The position numbers and the translations under genes are program-made. Below the pieces are notes generated by a model that saw only the letters and a program-made list of their open reading frames with translations, searched no databases and was not told where the DNA came from. Below, piece by piece: positions 12,558 through 19,508 of a DNA stretch of 24,352 bases (position 1 is its first letter; each line of letters starts with the position of its first letter). This stretch comes from a virus. The stretch lies in IMG/VR virus record IMGVR_UViG_3300046660_000787, positions 1 through 24,352 of that record; one strand, written 5' to 3'.

Positions 12558-13345
12558 GCGTTCAAGCAATGTCATGGGCGCTGTCTTTGCCCACGCAAGT
12601 TCTCAAGGATGCCAGCGCACGGCACGTTCTGCTGTGCCTGGCCAACTATGCCGGATCGAACGGTACTGGCGCGTTTCCGTCAGCTTCCACCCTGGCTCAG
12701 GACACCGGTCTATCCGAGCGTACCGTGCGTTACAAGTTAGATGACCTGGAGAAGTCGGGACTGATCAAGCAGGGCAATCAGGCGATTGCTGCTGTTCACA
12801 TTGATCGCCATGACCGACGCCCAGTCGTTTACGACCTCCAATTATTGCGGGGTGCAAATGCTGCACCCCGTTCCGAGCGGGGTGCAAATGACGGCACGGG
12901 GTGCAATCCACAACAGAACGGGGTGCAAGCTACGACAGAACGGGGTGCAGCGGCTGCACCCAATACGTCAATTAACCATCAGGTAACCGAACAGCAGCTG
13001 CAGCGCGAGTTTCCTGGCGTGGTCGATGATCAGGATCGACAAGCTCTTGATGCTCTCGAAGATCCTCGCCAGCGCTTTTCGATGTTTGCCGACTGGGAGT
13101 TCAGCGCTAAACAGTTGGAAGACCAGCTTCGCCTGATGTGCTTGCCGATCTCGTCGGCTACCGATGAGTTGATTAACTCGTTCAAAGGTTTCTTCATCGC
13201 CAAACCCGATACCCGTGACAACGCCGCCGGCTGGTGCCACCGCCTTGCCAAGTGGATCAAGCGTGATCGCGCTGTGAAGTCCGGCGACATTGAGGAAGAG
13301 ATGGATGCGACCGGTGACTGGACTGCCAAGGGAGTTCGGGTATGA
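12554..13345 (+). CDS. Replication initiation protein with winged HTH and DnaT domain
   Basis: A 263-residue lambda O-like initiator. Residues 15-75 form a winged helix-turn-helix typical of phage replication proteins (STLAQDTGLSERTVRYKLDD, then LEKSGLI). Residues 175-238 (FSMFADWEFSAKQLEDQLRL... WCHRLAKWIKRD) match the DnaT DNA-binding domain found in primosomal and phage replication proteins. The linker between the two (residues 99-137) is low-complexity and coincides with the iterons, so the DNA there is conserved for binding rather than protein structure. GTG 12554 has GGAG seven bases upstream. It should bind the origin inside its own gene and recruit the helicase loader encoded next, with which it overlaps (ATGA). 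Confidence 0.88.
   Translation: MSVQAMSWALSLPTQVLKDASARHVLLCLANYAGSNGTGAFPSASTLAQDTGLSERTVRYKLDDLEKSGLIKQGNQAIAAVHIDRHDRRPVVYDLQLLRGANAAPRSERGANDGTGCNPQQNGVQATTERGAAAAPNTSINHQVTEQQLQREFPGVVDDQDRQALDALEDPRQRFSMFADWEFSAKQLEDQLRLMCLPISSATDELINSFKGFFIAKPDTRDNAAGWCHRLAKWIKRDRAVKSGDIEEEMDATGDWTAKGVRV
12848..12961. repeat. Iteron array inside the replication gene (probable phage origin)
   Basis: CGGGGTGCA occurs five times in direct orientation, starting at 12848, 12878, 12897, 12919 and 12941 (spacings 30, 19, 22, 22). Its exact complement TGCACCCCG lies at 12862-12870, and a partial inverted copy is at 12955-12961. The ~22-base spacing is about two helical turns. In lambda the origin iterons also lie within gene O, so this is very likely the replication origin bound by the initiator. 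Confidence 0.85.
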
Positions 13346-14215: not shown

Positions 14216-14508
14216 GCTCGAAGAAGCTTCGCGCCTCGGCCAATGGCCAAGAGTGCACCGTCCGGATGCCAGGCATCTGCAATCACAATCCAGAAACCAC
14301 CGTCCTCGCGCATCTGCCTTGCGGGCAGAAGGGTATGGGCATGAAAGGCTTTGACACCGTGGCGGTGTACGCGTGCAGCGCTTGCCACGACGTGATCGAC
14401 GGCCGCGCCGCCGGCGAGATCGACTGGCAGGACGTGCCGCGCGCCATCGCCGAAACCCACGAAGCCCTGATCATGGCTGGAATTCTCACCGTGAAGGGGG
14501 CCGCATGA
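14206..14508 (+). CDS. YbcO-like (DUF1364) putative nuclease
   Basis: A 100-residue protein of the DUF1364 group (YbcO of the DLP12 prophage). The key pattern is present: ANGQECTVRMPGICNHNPET, followed by TVLAHLPCGQKGMGMK and later ACSACHDVIDGR. The cysteines and histidines in these stretches resemble an HNH-type metal-binding nuclease core. In the YbcO family this gene sits in the ninR-like segment of lambdoid phages, which agrees with its location between the replication genes and Q. ATG 14206 and stop 14508 overlap both neighbours. A structure-based role as a DNA endonuclease has been proposed for YbcO; activity here is inferred only. Confidence 0.85.
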   Translation: MRVSSKKLRASANGQECTVRMPGICNHNPETTVLAHLPCGQKGMGMKGFDTVAVYACSACHDVIDGRAAGEIDWQDVPRAIAETHEALIMAGILTVKGAA

Positions 14509-15797
14509 GTACCGCCGCGGTGAAGATCACCGAAGCTGAGATCAAACGCCAAGTGGCCGGCACCGTACAGGACGTACGCGACATTGAGAATAAGGGCCTG
14601 TACCTGCGTTTCAACAAGGCTCGAACCGGTGGTTCGTGGTACCTGGTGTTGAAGGGCAAGTGGAATCCCATCGGCACCTTCCCCGAGCTGACTCACAAAC
14701 AGGTTGTAGCGGCGCTGCCGTCGCTTCGGCTGCGTCTGGCCGCCGGGGAGGGCGCGAGCCTGTCGAAGTGGAACGCTGTTGGCGAACTGCTGGACTGGTT
14801 CGCTGATCGCATGTCGCGCGATCGCAATCTGTCGACCAAGCGCAAAAACACCGGCGCCTCGATCATCAAGTGCCACCTGAAGCCGCGTCTCGGTGAGCTG
14901 CCCCTGATCGGCGTCGACAAGCCCGCACTCGACACCCTGTTGATGTGGCCGCTGCAGGAGACGGTTTCCATCGACTACGTGCGTTCCGCGTTCCAGCTGT
15001 TGGCCTTGGCATTCCGGCAGGCGGCCAAGCTGGGGATGATCACGCCCAACCCGATGGCTGCTATCCGGTTCAACGATTTCTCCAAGGCGAAGGTCGGCAT
15101 CAAGCCGTCTCGGCTTCGCGGTGTTCAGTTGGAAGGTCTCCTCGGGCAACTGGCCGACGTCATGGCCACCGCGCCGCTGGATTCGATGCTTGCGCTGATG
15201 ATGCTCTGCCACGGCACGCGGATCGGTGAAACCCGTATGGCGCGCTGGTCGCATATCAGCCTGGCCGAGCGGGAATGGTTCATCCCGGCCGAGAACACGA
15301 AAACCGGTGTCGAGCATCAACTTCCCCTGACGGAGCAAGTGTGCACGCTGCTGACCCGGTACCGCGAAGGTCAATACGCCCGAGGCTATGAGGGCCAGTG
15401 TCTGTTCCCGGCGCGCAACGGCAAGTCACTGGGCGAGGCTCAGGGCTGCGCCGTGTTTCGTCGGTTGGGGCAGGGCGAGTGGACCAGTCACGACCTGCGC
15501 AAGTTGGCCCGCACTGGCTGGGCAGATCTCGGCATCGACCACCTGATTGGCGAGCTGCTGATCAACCACGCGATGGGCCACAACGTGAAGGTTTATATCC
15601 AGTCGGACGTGATGAGCCGCAAGCGTGATGCCCTCGAACAGTGGCACGCACATCTAGATCAGAAAGGCTTTGCAGCGATTCATGGATTGACCGGCTTTAG
15701 ATTTGAAGATTCCGGTAATTCGCTGCAAGCCACAGACGATAAGGCCTGCAAGGCCATTGAAGAAACAATCATAGGCGAGGTTTTAAATCATGCATAA
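14505..15797 (+). CDS. Second tyrosine recombinase (integrase-like) in the ninR segment
   Basis: A 430-residue tyrosine recombinase with the full catalytic set: R239 in CHGTRIGETR, K266 in TKTG, H329 and R332 in SHDLRKLART, H355 in LLINHAMGH and Y364 in VKVYIQSD. The N-terminal ~80 residues look like the DUF4102-type arm domain of P4-like integrases, and the C-terminus after the tyrosine (SRKRDALEQWHAHL) is typical of them. It overlaps the YbcO-like gene (ATGA) and the next gene by eight bases, so it belongs to the replication operon rather than to a separate island. No att-like repeats are visible beside it. Its role is unclear: it may resolve phage dimers or act as an accessory recombinase in replication. 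Distinct from the end-located int. Confidence 0.9.
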   Translation: MSTAAVKITEAEIKRQVAGTVQDVRDIENKGLYLRFNKARTGGSWYLVLKGKWNPIGTFPELTHKQVVAALPSLRLRLAAGEGASLSKWNAVGELLDWFADRMSRDRNLSTKRKNTGASIIKCHLKPRLGELPLIGVDKPALDTLLMWPLQETVSIDYVRSAFQLLALAFRQAAKLGMITPNPMAAIRFNDFSKAKVGIKPSRLRGVQLEGLLGQLADVMATAPLDSMLALMMLCHGTRIGETRMARWSHISLAEREWFIPAENTKTGVEHQLPLTEQVCTLLTRYREGQYARGYEGQCLFPARNGKSLGEAQGCAVFRRLGQGEWTSHDLRKLARTGWADLGIDHLIGELLINHAMGHNVKVYIQSDVMSRKRDALEQWHAHLDQKGFAAIHGLTGFRFEDSGNSLQATDDKACKAIEETIIGEVLNHA

Positions 15798-16110
15798 AGG
15801 GCTAGTGCCTGACTTTAAAAGGGAGCGGATCGAGCTGGACCCTTGCTCGACCTGCCTGGGGAAAGCGGTAGTAAAAGGTCTGTTTTATGAGCTGGTTTGC
15901 ACGAATTGCAACGGTTCAGGTTGGATTGTTAGCGGCAGCAAGTTGGTGCTTTCTTCCGACGAACTGGTCACTCAGTTGAGTTTCAAATTGCAACGAGCAC
16001 TGAGTGAAATTTCAGCACTGAAAGGCTTGCCGCTCACGAGCGAGCCACAGTGCCAATACGAACGAGTGAACCGCCTAGGGGCGGGCGGCACAAACTACAC
16101 AGGAGATTGA
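15790..16110 (+). CDS. Cys4 zinc-finger-like small phage protein
   Basis: A 106-residue protein with two CxxC pairs, C19-x2-C22 (DPCSTCLGK) and C37-x2-C40 (LVCTNCNGSGW), as in a DnaJ-type or zinc-ribbon unit, so it probably binds one zinc. The C-terminal half is a helix (LSFKLQRALSEISALKGL) followed by a polar tail. ATG 15790 overlaps the end of the recombinase gene by eight bases. It sits directly before Q, and zinc modules occur in Q-type antiterminators, so it could take part in late regulation; that is an inference from position only. Confidence 0.7.
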   Translation: MHKGLVPDFKRERIELDPCSTCLGKAVVKGLFYELVCTNCNGSGWIVSGSKLVLSSDELVTQLSFKLQRALSEISALKGLPLTSEPQCQYERVNRLGAGGTNYTGD

Positions 16111-16114
16111 AAAA

Positions 16115-16504
16115 ATGATGATTCGTAAGCCGGCAGGACGACCGCTGGGTGATACCGAGTATTTGCTCGAGCAATGGGGTTGGTGGAGGATGGACGGCAT
16201 GGGAGTGCCAGGTTACACGTCACCTACGTTTGCGCTGATGCGTCAGGCGGTGCCACGATCATCGTCGACCAAGAACTATTGCATCACTGATGATTGGGCT
16301 ATTGCTATCGACAATGCTGTAGCGAAGCTATCGTGCCGTGATCAACAGATGGGCGACATTATCTGGCTATATTACGGTCTCAAATGGCCGATGGTGCGAG
16401 TAGGTAAGCACTACGGTATGAGTGAGGGAAAGGCGAGAGAGTTGGCGAGGGCTGGGGCAGCATGGATTGATTGCGCGGTCAGCAGTACAAGACGTGCAGC
16501 CTAG
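16115..16504 (+). CDS. Q-type late antiterminator
   Basis: A 129-residue protein of the phage antitermination Q family (PF06530 type): YLLEQWGWWRMDGMGVPGYT at the N-terminus, then ITDDWAIAIDNAVAKLSCRD, and an HTH-like C-terminus (YYGLKWPMVRVGKHYGMSEG, then KARELARAGAAWIDCAV). It should load on RNA polymerase at the late promoter and allow reading through terminators into holin, terminase and structural genes. AGGAG lies nine bases before the first of two adjacent ATG codons (16115 and 16118). A near-copy of its last 27 residues occurs downstream at 17703-17789, showing that a second Q gene was once there. Confidence 0.88.
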   Translation: MMIRKPAGRPLGDTEYLLEQWGWWRMDGMGVPGYTSPTFALMRQAVPRSSSTKNYCITDDWAIAIDNAVAKLSCRDQQMGDIIWLYYGLKWPMVRVGKHYGMSEGKARELARAGAAWIDCAVSSTRRAA

Positions 16505-16665
16505 CAAGCATAAGGTGGAGCCGTGGAGTAGTTGATTTTTTAAAGACGAATGGTTTATTCGATACAACGCTTGTCTGGATGCAATCTGTTAGTGCTACCT
16601 GATAATCTATGATCTTTGATCAGGTTTTGATCCCTGATTGTCATACGCACTCCTAGGGAAGAAAT

Positions 16666-17703
16666 ATGGAAAAGGCTGATTTGGTTCAAAAATTTCTGGG
16701 TGAGTATATTGAGGAAGCTGAGAGCCAAGAGTTTCTGAGGGATCACGACAGTAGATTTGAGGGGCTCAGAGCTGTAGTTAAGAAGAAGTCCGAAAATTTA
16801 CGCCCGCCGCTAAATGTGGTATCTCAGCGATTGTATTATGTTGCGGATCATTCATTTTACTGTGTTGAACTGTTTAAATATAAATATTATTTGCTTGCCA
16901 AAGGAGTCCTTGGCGCGCTAGAGACAAATAACCCACTGTCGCTAGCAAATAACTGTCGCTCACTTTTAGAGCAAGTCGCTACGCTAACGTACTGCATGGA
17001 TGCAGTTGAGCAGATGTTGAATGACCTAAAGGATCAGGGTTCACCGGAAAAAATAGATAAAGTGATTGCTAAAGCTGAACAAGTTTTGAAGCGCACGTAT
17101 GCTGGCAAGGGCAAAACGAAAGACTCAACTAAAGAGTCTGAGGCGATTCATGTTAATACAGCGATAAAGGCTCTAGGTTTGAAGGCTTTGGATGCTTCAG
17201 ACTCCTATGATTATTTGTGTGAATTTGTTCATCCTAATTTTGGGAATAATTACCTTATCTCCGCTGGAGAGTTAGGGAAAGGTAAGATAGGAAGCCGGGC
17301 GAACTCTGATGAAACAATCTTGAAAATTGCGGCTATCGCTGTTGGATTACTTGATTTTAGTGCAAAAATAAGCGGGATGTTGTATCCAAGCCTTACTTGG
17401 CGTGCGCACAATCATGTAGAGATTTGTTTTCAGAGAGGAGCAAAAATAACTAACGTCTTTGCAAGCAAAAAGCCAATTCCGGAAGGCGATGGGAAAACAA
17501 GGGAAACAGCATTTTTCTTTAAAAATGCCAGAACTCAGCAAGAATCAATGTCCCTAAATTATCAATATTTGCAGGCGTGTGAGTATGATATTCATCCCGC
17601 CAATAGGACTAATGGGGGCTATAGTAATGGTTATGTTTATGATGTGTGGGAAACAAAGGATGGTGCGATTTGGTTTAAGACTCCGGTATACCATGGCATC
17701 TAA
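16666..17703 (+). CDS. Helical cargo protein after Q, candidate defence gene (345 aa)
   Basis: An AT-rich 345-residue gene with a good start (AGGGA six bases before ATG 16666). The first ~240 residues are helical and contain ANNCRSLLEQVATLTY (R98, E102) and, 80 residues later, SYDYLCEFVHPNFGNN (H189). This RSxxE...YxxL...H layout resembles the DUF5677-like protein at 6630-7364. The last ~100 residues are more beta-like (WRAHNHVEICFQRG through GYVYDVWETKDGAIWFKTPV). It has no membrane segment. It sits between Q and a leftover Q C-terminus, so it entered by recombination within Q sequences and may be transcribed with the late genes or alone. I know no characterised homologue. A HEPN-like, RNA-targeting function is a hypothesis. 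Confidence 0.75.
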   Translation: MEKADLVQKFLGEYIEEAESQEFLRDHDSRFEGLRAVVKKKSENLRPPLNVVSQRLYYVADHSFYCVELFKYKYYLLAKGVLGALETNNPLSLANNCRSLLEQVATLTYCMDAVEQMLNDLKDQGSPEKIDKVIAKAEQVLKRTYAGKGKTKDSTKESEAIHVNTAIKALGLKALDASDSYDYLCEFVHPNFGNNYLISAGELGKGKIGSRANSDETILKIAAIAVGLLDFSAKISGMLYPSLTWRAHNHVEICFQRGAKITNVFASKKPIPEGDGKTRETAFFFKNARTQQESMSLNYQYLQACEYDIHPANRTNGGYSNGYVYDVWETKDGAIWFKTPVYHGI

Positions 17704-17789
17704 GTGAGGAAGGGAATGCTTGTGAATTGGCTACATTGGGGGATGCTTGGATTGATTGTGCGGTAAGCAATACGCCGAAGGCTGCCTAA
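17703..17789 (+). pseudogene. C-terminal remnant of a second Q antiterminator
   Basis: In one frame this stretch reads SEEGNACELATLGDAWIDCA, then VSNTPKAA and a TAA stop, closely matching the end of the intact Q protein (SEGKARELARAGAAWIDCAV, then SSTRRAA). DNA similarity is imperfect, so it came from a different Q allele, not from a recent copy. It has no start and begins right at the stop of the cargo gene. It is a recombination scar. Confidence 0.8.
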
Positions 17790-17797
17790 AACAGTTG

Positions 17798-17834
17798 TAT
17801 GGTATTAGCTGTTGCTTGCTCAGCTAATACCATA
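17798..17834. terminator. Hairpin with perfect 14-bp stem between convergent genes
   Basis: TATGGTATTAGCTG and CAGCTAATACCATA pair perfectly around a nine-base loop, and outer CAGTT/AACTG can extend it. It lies between the ends of two convergent genes. There is no long T-run, so it may act as a weak bidirectional terminator or protect mRNA 3' ends. Confidence 0.5.
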
Positions 17835-17847
17835 GCGATAACTGAAA

Positions 17848-18807
17848 TTATTTTTCCCCTTTCGCGGAGCTGATCATCTTTCCTCCCTTTAGTTGAATGT
17901 TCGAATTTGTGACGCCTTTTAGAATCAGCTCGTAAGGATGGTCTGCCATTTTTTCTCGCTCGGATCGATTGAGAAGTAAGAGCTTTAAAACTTCCACATC
18001 TCTATCTGTTGGAGACGCCCCGGGCTTGAGTCTTTTAAGGTATTCATCCGCATCGTAGTATTTTTTTCCATCTTCGTGGAGAGCTAGAAGTACTGAGGAG
18101 CGAAAGTTTGATGTTCTATAAATATATACAATGAATGCGGCTAAGCTGACATATAGGCCGATGATTGCTGTTACTGCTCTATCGCTGAGAGCTTCTCCAG
18201 CAAAGAAATAGATTAATAGCACTCCAATATTGAATAGTACAAACAGGTTGATCATGACCGTTTTTAACCTGCCGGCACTACGCATTTGCTCCTGAATCGT
18301 GGTTTCGAGAATTGTGCCTCGATTTTCTCGATCTTTTATACGGTTTTGCTCTCGCTGCTCTTGAAGTATTTTTGACGGCGGGTGTTGCGTAAGATAAGTC
18401 GACACTGATTCTTCGATGATTAACTTGAATTCTTCACTCAATGAATTTTCAATTGCTTTAGTTTCTTCAATTTTTTTAGCGATCAGTCCAGGTAGGTCAC
18501 GTGATAACTGGATCTCAAGCTCTGTATCAATTGCTTCTCTTCTACTCTCGCTTGTTTTGCTTGAAAATATTTTTTGTAAGGTTTCAACTTGCATCTCTAA
18601 GTAGAAAAGTCTTTCTAAGTAGTTCTTTGATTGTGAAGAGTCAGATTCGTCGTAAAGGAAAAGTTTTGACATGTTTTTGGTTAGGCGATTAAATGGTCTT
18701 GTTTTAAATGTCAATGTCGCCGATAAGATGAGTGCTAAAAAACTCGCTACAGCCGCTGTATAGCTAGAGAATGGATCGTTTACTAATTGGCGCAGGAATT
18801 CGTTCAT
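17848..18807 (-). CDS. Three-helix membrane protein with coiled coil, cargo gene (319 aa)
   Basis: An AT-rich gene on the minus strand in the late-control region. I start it at ATG 18807, although its ribosome site is weak; the frame is open a further 16 codons to a TTG. Residues 14-34 form one membrane helix (SSYTAAVASFLALILSATLT), residues 60-180 a charged coiled coil (many E/K/Q), and residues 183-204 and 211-231 two more membrane helices. The last ~85 residues form a soluble helical domain (DGKKYYDADEYLKRLKPG...). It ends 14 bases from the large hairpin. Opposite orientation to late genes and its composition indicate a lysogeny-expressed cargo gene. I do not recognise the family; a membrane-anchored exclusion or abortive-infection role is possible. 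Confidence 0.7.
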   Translation of the reverse strand: MNEFLRQLVNDPFSSYTAAVASFLALILSATLTFKTRPFNRLTKNMSKLFLYDESDSSQSKNYLERLFYLEMQVETLQKIFSSKTSESRREAIDTELEIQLSRDLPGLIAKKIEETKAIENSLSEEFKLIIEESVSTYLTQHPPSKILQEQREQNRIKDRENRGTILETTIQEQMRSAGRLKTVMINLFVLFNIGVLLIYFFAGEALSDRAVTAIIGLYVSLAAFIVYIYRTSNFRSSVLLALHEDGKKYYDADEYLKRLKPGASPTDRDVEVLKLLLLNRSEREKMADHPYELILKGVTNSNIQLKGGKMISSAKGEK

Positions 18808-19047
18808 AAAATTCTTTTTAGTGGGTTTTGTTTTTTTGCGGTTAGCTAATTGCAATTCGAACGGCCGTTTTGCAAGGGGCCATCATAGCGCCATCTATCA
18901 CTTCTATTTAGTTCATTGTCAAGGCTAATAGCCACGTCAAGTCAAAAAATCATCCGTTCGAGGGGTAAAAAGACTTTTCCGCGCGGAATAGGCATGGTTT
19001 TATAGCAGCGTGAACTGCTGTGAACGCAGCTAGACGCTTCCAGAAGC
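18808..19047. other. Intergenic region, probable late promoter location
   Basis: No gene is supported here. By analogy with lambda, the late promoter and Q-utilisation site should lie between Q and the terminators before holin, and this is the only gene-free part outside the cargo. I see a short GGCT-AAT-AGCC inverted repeat near 18924 but no convincing -35/-10 pair. Confidence 0.3.
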
Positions 19048-19069
19048 CCGACCATCGAGTCGGTTTTTT
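19048..19069 (+). terminator. Rho-independent terminator 1 before holin
   Basis: CCGAC and GTCGG pair around a six-base loop and are followed by six T. It lies about 120 bases before the holin start and fits the tR' terminator that Q proteins overcome. Confidence 0.7.
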
Positions 19070-19081
19070 ATGCCTATTTAT

Positions 19082-19108
19082 AAGCCCTGCCACCGTGCGG
19101 GGCTTTTT
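19082..19108 (+). terminator. Rho-independent terminator 2 before holin
   Basis: AAGCCCTGC and GCGGGGCTT form a nine-pair stem with one G-U pair and a six-base loop, followed by TTT, CG and TTTT. Two consecutive terminators this close make an efficient stop for unmodified polymerase. Confidence 0.75.
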
Positions 19109-19187
19109 CGTTTTCGGCCCCATGCCTGGCTCTTTGCTCGTAGCGGATGACAGTGACATGGAGGCCGAACCTATTTGAGGACTACAG

Positions 19188-19508
19188 ATGAGCACGGAAC
19201 AGCAAGCTCTCGCGGATGTACCACTTTGGCTTCTGATATTGCTAAGCATGGCGGGCTTGTCCGGGGAGATGCTGAGAGCATCGGGCAGCGACCTCGGGTT
19301 GCGACAGATCCTGCAGCGAGTGGCTTTGCGATTTCTCGCATCGGGTTTGCTGGGAATGGCCACGCTGCTGCTAGCAATGGCGCTCTGGAACAACCTCTAT
19401 CTGGCTGCCGGATTGGGCATCGTCATTGCGGTAATTGGTGCCGATGTAGCGGGGGGGTTGTACACCCGGTTCTTGGCAAAGAAGGCAGGCATTCAAGTCG
19501 ACGAGTAA
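19188..19508 (+). CDS. Phage holin
   Basis: A 106-residue hydrophobic protein with about three membrane segments (residues 10-30 DVPLWLLILLSMAGLSGEML, 46-66 LRFLASGLLGMATLLLAMAL and 68-92), a polar N-terminus and a charged C-terminal tail (RFLAKKAGIQVDE). Size and layout match a phage holin, which forms inner-membrane lesions that release endolysin at the end of the lytic cycle. GAGGA lies six bases before ATG 19188. It is placed just after the tandem terminators and before the packaging genes, a usual position in Pseudomonas lambdoid phages. No endolysin gene is next to it in this window. Confidence 0.8.
   Translation: MSTEQQALADVPLWLLILLSMAGLSGEMLRASGSDLGLRQILQRVALRFLASGLLGMATLLLAMALWNNLYLAAGLGIVIAVIGADVAGGLYTRFLAKKAGIQVDE

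Follow-up and report, generated by a model that had tools for sequence, protein, structure and literature searches.

Layout of the late-control region and the two Q ends

The window analyzed in this study, a stretch of 24,352 nucleotides, contains a lambda-like late-control region, in which the replication gene P (starting at 13342) is followed by the gene for a second tyrosine recombinase (PF00589; ORF 14373–15797), two genes upstream of the antitermination gene Q, and by a gene encoding 106 amino acids just before Q. Q itself (16115–16504, plus strand) is intact and encodes 129 residues, the C-terminal end of which reads ...AWIDCAVSSTRRAA; it matched PF06530 above the cut-off (41.8 bits, cut-off 26, E 1.2e-10, residues 15–119) and phrog_79 (E 3.5e-28). 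Behind the Q stop codon lie an AT-rich spacer reaching to the next start codon (16505–16665), an open reading frame for a 345-residue protein of no known family, hereafter the cargo gene (16666–17703, plus strand), the dead tail of a second Q consisting of its last 27 codons and stop codon (17706–17789, plus strand), a hairpin ATGGTATTAGCTG/CAGCTAATACCAT 10 nt past this tail (17799–17833), and a gene for a 335-residue membrane protein on the minus strand (17848–18855). A conserved leader (18966–19187, plus strand), carrying the motif TTTCCGCGCGGA at 18976 and two terminator-like hairpins (19048–19063 and 19082–19105), precedes the holin gene (19188–19508, plus strand; PF16085, E 8.5e-23), which is the first late gene and is followed by terminase genes. 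The G+C content from 16505 to approximately 18970 was 39–42%, against 51–64% in the flanks. The region 18966–19187 presumably constitutes the late promoter/terminator region and the right edge of the variable interval, and by analogy with lambda and with the phage described in PMC7326022 the leader would act as a Q-dependent late promoter.

The earlier note on this DNA had read a divergent Q 3' end directly after the cargo gene and an intact Q before it, and both were found, at 17706–17789 and 16115–16504; its coordinates proved good, the right limit of 17834 being the end of the hairpin just past the tail. With Q as the query, the record gave exactly two matches, one to the gene itself (E 2e-91) and one to the tail (17706–17786, E 2.3e-6). 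The translation of the tail, EEGNACELATLGDAWIDCAVSNTPKAA*, begins 2 nt past the cargo stop codon and aligns to Q residues 103–129 with 67% identity (67–69% across comparisons), in the Q reading frame and with its stop codon at the homologous place, and at the DNA level the live Q end and the tail form direct repeats (71% identity over 65 nt). A Q profile run over the six frames of 336 loci recovered the tail with E 1e-4, well clear of the background, and in a scan of 59 filled slots, i.e., Q-to-leader intervals occupied by genes, its DNA score was 34 as compared with 20 for the best shuffled slot. A match of only 27 codons at 67–69% identity might be taken for a chance resemblance or for the last part of some other genuine gene, but this reading is scarcely credible in view of the E value in the record and the shuffled maximum; moreover, the tail occurs in four contigs, and the tail of a second lineage described below occupies the usual place of the Q end with respect to the leader. 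The contrary case named in the earlier note, a remnant lying in related phages within a longer real gene unrelated to Q, did not appear, and no start-to-stop gene spans the tail. Its open frame comprises 36 amino acids and is not a full-length PF06530 member; the segment 17706–17789 is a Q fragment and no gene.

The three further contigs that carry the tail are L135, L137, and L056, which were also the only matches to the common tail peptide GDAWIDCAVS in a scan of viral contigs. L135 matches the window with 99.98% identity across 13 kb and probably represents the same phage population. In the sister phage L056 (92%), the tail is related to that of the window and differs strongly from it outside an identical core of 27 nt, a divergence that needs decay or repeated events.

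Searches of the 345-residue cargo protein against Pfam, PHROG, PADLOC, and NCBIfam returned no match. Its relatives were found only in six viral contigs, with none in 399 Pseudomonas genomes, and no relative of either the cargo gene or the membrane-protein gene was found in the phage collection. The AlphaFold model of the cargo protein was weak (mean pLDDT 64), and a Foldseek search with it gave nothing under E 0.1, the alignments taken in a second look being generic helical folds only. Since both family and fold searches were empty, we claim no function for this protein. The motif LCEFVHPNF is kept down to a relative of 37% identity and may be HEPN-like. The membrane-protein family, which combines a coiled coil with apparent membrane helices and occurs in at least six phages behind Q or a Q remnant, likewise had no match in Pfam, PHROGs, NCBIfam, or PADLOC, and neither of the two genes (345 and 335 residues) matches known defence families.

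The Q-cargo block and the membrane-gene module

The two halves of the arrangement were found separately in related phages. In L057 (IMGVR_UViG_3300048080_000238), Q, spacer, and cargo gene are collinear with the window and form one continuous DNA alignment of 73% identity, after which the leader follows, with neither tail nor membrane gene; its cargo is 85% identical to that of the window, and its Q is the closest to the window Q outside the lineage (89%). L144 (IMGVR_UViG_3300028585_000498), on the other hand, carries Q, the matching hairpin, a 62%-identical membrane gene, the leader, and the holin gene, and is 89–94% identical to the window on both flanks. There the hairpin follows an intact Q at a spacing from the Q stop codon similar to that from the tail stop codon in the window. 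The membrane gene stands directly behind an intact Q, without intervening cargo, in five phages (L144, L277, L076, L085, and L329), and in our sample this family is always found directly behind a Q end, which in the window lineage is the dead one. The complete Q of the second type that the earlier note proposed to look for thus has its counterpart in such relatives as L144, where the module to the right of the tail directly follows an intact Q.

The identity between the window and L144 switches at Q. In the left arm it was 84–99% from 14070 to approximately 15970, fell to 66% at 15970–16070, ranging from 66 to 86% ahead of Q, ran at 73–75% through Q, and returned to approximately 94% in the late genes. 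A further phage, L003, lacks the segment corresponding to 16483–18966 of the window. Around the 106-residue gene (15770–16070), identity to both L056 and L144 dips to 66–89% and that to L055 stays at 100%, so that this segment may be an additional recombination zone just to the left of Q.

When the tail of L056 was ranked against 287 Q ends, the best match was to a membrane-gene carrier (L277, rank 1); two other carriers, L085 and L144, ranked 17 and 43, and the Q of L056 itself ranked 81. The window tail scored about equally against its live Q group and against the membrane-gene carriers, and no phage with exactly the parental Q, hereafter Q(old), was found among those compared; the assignment of the window tail is therefore based on its position, the hairpin, and the sister tail. 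These features suggest that the dead tail is the former Q of the right-hand membrane-gene module. It is not part of the 345-residue cargo module, because L057 has the cargo gene without a tail.

The indecisive scores of the window tail would equally suit a partial tandem duplication of its own Q, subsequently decayed, in which the cargo gene was inserted between the copies, and the direct repeats formed by the tail and Q would be accounted for as well. We nevertheless regard such a duplication as improbable, since the tail of L056 resembles the Q ends of membrane-gene carriers more than the Q of its own phage, the spacing from tail to hairpin is as in L144, and the switch of sequence partner falls in the live Q and not in the tail.

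Taken together, we consider it very probable that the gap separating the Q stop codon from the leader serves as a slot into which accessory genes are inserted, and that a Q(new)-cargo segment recombined into a Q(old)-membrane-gene module, of which the Q(old) end remained as a scar. In the proposed course of events, an ancestor with the order Q(old), hairpin, membrane gene, and leader would have recombined with a relative carrying Q(new) and the cargo gene. The left exchange would have used ordinary homology upstream of Q or at the Q start, and the right exchange would have joined the cargo end to a point among the final 30 codons of Q(old). The resulting phage would thereby have kept a whole Q, gained the cargo gene, and retained the old module together with the Q(old) end as a scar. 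Most likely, then, a block of Q plus cargo replaced the older Q save its 3' end, so that two cargo layers are stacked, the 345-residue gene being the newest and the membrane-protein gene the older one. The scar, the parental-type arrangements, and the change of sequence partner at Q are observed; the order and number of the events, and that they proceeded by homologous recombination, are our inference.

The interval between Q and the late leader in related phages

The Q contexts comprised 304 distinct examples from 481 loci, 268 of them with at least 2 kb downstream, and the slot was delimited by two anchors, the Q stop codon and the leader motif TTTCCNCGCGGA. The distance between the anchors was 60 nt or less in 76 contexts (nearly all 5–8 nt) and more than 300 nt in 72, with none between; in 120 of the 268 the leader motif was unrecognised. 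The filled slots had a G+C content of 43.6% as compared with 59.1% upstream, and in 69 of the 72 it was lower than in the upstream sequence of the same phage. They contained 105 ORFs of at least 100 amino acids, falling into 74 families, 57 of which were singletons; as the calls were made mechanically, errors are to be expected among them. Both orientations occurred: of 59 slots in an earlier set, 33 had their longest ORF on the plus strand and 26 on the minus strand. Known defence families in the sampled slots were Old/Gabija-like, Septu PtuA and PtuB, AbiGi, ApeA-like HEPN, and PDC-S49. The claim that the position after Q is an exchange hotspot was thus borne out for the interval from Q to the leader, which is either empty or filled with members of 74 ORF families.

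Dead Q tails were also present in a second lineage, located approximately 6 nt before the leader in L043 (Pseudomonas brenneri), its viral-contig counterpart L355, L354, L356, and L358. These tails correspond to the last approximately 18 codons of Q and stand where the intact Q ends in such empty phages as L037 and L246; those of L354 and L358 are decayed and unrecognisable on their own. The members share the left arm up to 110–156 nt past the Q stop codon and, on the right, a block of approximately 390 nt plus the leader. Between these common blocks they are wholly different, with AbiGi and a 206-residue gene in L354 and L355, Septu in L356, and other genes in L358. Here, then, is the same remnant with other cargo that the earlier note had suggested seeking, one tail by the leader accompanying three cargo sets. 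The later cargo swaps in this lineage took place 110–156 nt past the Q stop codon and not inside Q.

Only these two lineages rose above the shuffled controls for dead Q tails among the 59, later 72, filled slots. All other filled slots scored at the shuffle level, and the idea that remnants mark the hotspot in general was rejected; dead Q tails are occasional scars and no standard component of the exchange. The tails are rare, and the general statement is founded on the slot itself and on the profile of linkage between cargo and Q end.

To obtain this profile, pairs of filled slots were compared for identity in successive 30-nt bins running upstream from the Q stop codon, with the identity of the remaining region and that of the leader regressed out. 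Pairs sharing a cargo family exceeded the others by 9.3 points in the last 30 nt of Q, by 4.6, 2.8, and 1.1 points in the three bins before that, and by approximately zero further in. In 1000 label permutations, none reached the values of the first two bins, though such permutation values are inexact because the pairs share ancestry and are not independent. When each cargo family contributed a single value, 10 of the 12 were positive (Wilcoxon p 0.002), and a first version of the test gave the same answer. The membrane-gene family was one of the two exceptions, as expected from the fact that its Q in the window lineage is the dead one. An isolated bin at -300 to -270 was also raised in cargo-sharing pairs (5.4 points, p 0.001).

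By this profile, exchange does run through Q ends. The proposal that cargo recombines through Q ends is supported by the excess identity in the last 30–90 nt of Q, with the limit that the later swaps of the second lineage lie beyond Q. In general, cargo would be exchanged by recombination in the flanks, at the left edge in the last 30–90 nt of Q and at the right edge in the leader, and the right joint would occasionally fall inside the resident Q and produce a dead end. Such joints would survive because a single complete Q and a single late leader are what the phage requires, and newer cargo would come to adjoin Q, with older layers adjoining the leader. More tentatively, the last approximately 60–90 nt of Q, being alike across divergent Q genes, may perhaps serve as a shared recombination adaptor by which Q-plus-cargo blocks are hung before any resident slot. 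If so, the newest defence modules would be found by Q and the older ones, with dead ends, towards the leader, and the order of layers would be a readable order of acquisition.

The location of the exchange edge at the 3' end of Q could alternatively point to a site-specific element, in which the tyrosine recombinase (ORF 14373–15797) inserts cargo at this end together with a replacement Q end, in the style of tRNA-gene elements. A second integrase-like gene near Q is indeed common (198 of 255 contexts tested), and in PseuP_224 it coexists with a normal integrase. The recombinase, however, accompanied 57 of 76 empty slots as compared with 60 of 69 filled ones (Fisher p 0.09), leaving insertion by the Q-side recombinase unsupported in this association test. 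Furthermore, no core as long as an att site is identical between the live Q end and the tail (71% over 65 nt), and a second Q end is absent from most filled slots, making such an element very unlikely.

Known accessory-gene slots, and variation of Q and the leader

The moron or defence hotspot is known as a kind. In the manner of phage morons, the slot genes part genes that are adjacent in relatives, as seen in the 76 empty against the 72 filled slots and in L003, and their base composition differs from that of the phage backbone; as in antiviral hotspots, conserved flanks enclose many unrelated gene sets, with known defence families inside. Lambdoid phages carry morons, including accessory genes after Q in Shiga-toxin phages, and the post-Q interval has been reported to be diverse (PMC8065619). 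These resemble the present case in that genes of foreign composition are inserted at the boundary of Q and the lysis genes, but the Stx cargo is situated past the late promoter, which drives its expression, whereas here the cargo lies between Q and the leader on both strands, and is for this reason probably outside late-operon control. A simple scan gave no sigma-70-like site, and the hairpin past the tail was not scored as a terminator. Variable antiviral hotspots are likewise known in P2 and P4 elements (PMC9122126), which share with the present slot fixed flanks, highly variable content, and known as well as candidate defence families; they differ in lying beside cos, where cohesive-end recombination has been suggested, whereas the present slot extends from Q to the leader and its exchange is tied to the 3' end of Q. 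In the Pseudomonas phage vB_PaeP_YA3, the holin gene is reported to lie approximately 240 bp past Q with no cargo between them (PMC7326022). Both YA3 and PseuP_224 (OP795451) have the order Q, promoter-terminator region, and holin gene, and PseuP_224 also has a second integrase before Q, but neither carries a dead Q tail. In the open-licence literature, we found no description of dead Q ends as scars for the Stx-phage morons, nor of the Pseudomonas Q-leader slot, its layering, or the dead Q ends within it.

These results define a slot for accessory and defence genes, common to a large group of Pseudomonas prophages, which can be mined by means of the Q stop codon and TTTCCNCGCGGA and in which many genes match no known family. 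Module joints are usually argued from mosaic patterns without being visible themselves; in the present phages, dead Q ends and the fall-off of cargo linkage along Q mark the points at which modules are cut and joined.

Some variation of Q and of the leader was also observed. Q is split over two reading frames by apparent frameshifts in L252 (2934–3310) and L352 (662–1045), possibly representing an inactivated Q or sequencing errors. L053 and L054, which have partial Q genes and no intact Q in the stretch examined, were treated as decayed prophages. The leader consensus took two forms among 85 empty and 72 filled contexts, TTTCCGCGCGGATAAACACCTGTTTT mostly in the empty and TTTCCGCGCGGAATAGATCTGTTTTTATAGCAGCGTG mostly in the filled ones. 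Inside the late leader of L057 (7779–7920), about a dozen head-to-tail copies of a unit of approximately 10 nt (TGCTGTGAAC) were found, apparently expanded from a motif of which the window leader has one or two copies (around 19010–19030).
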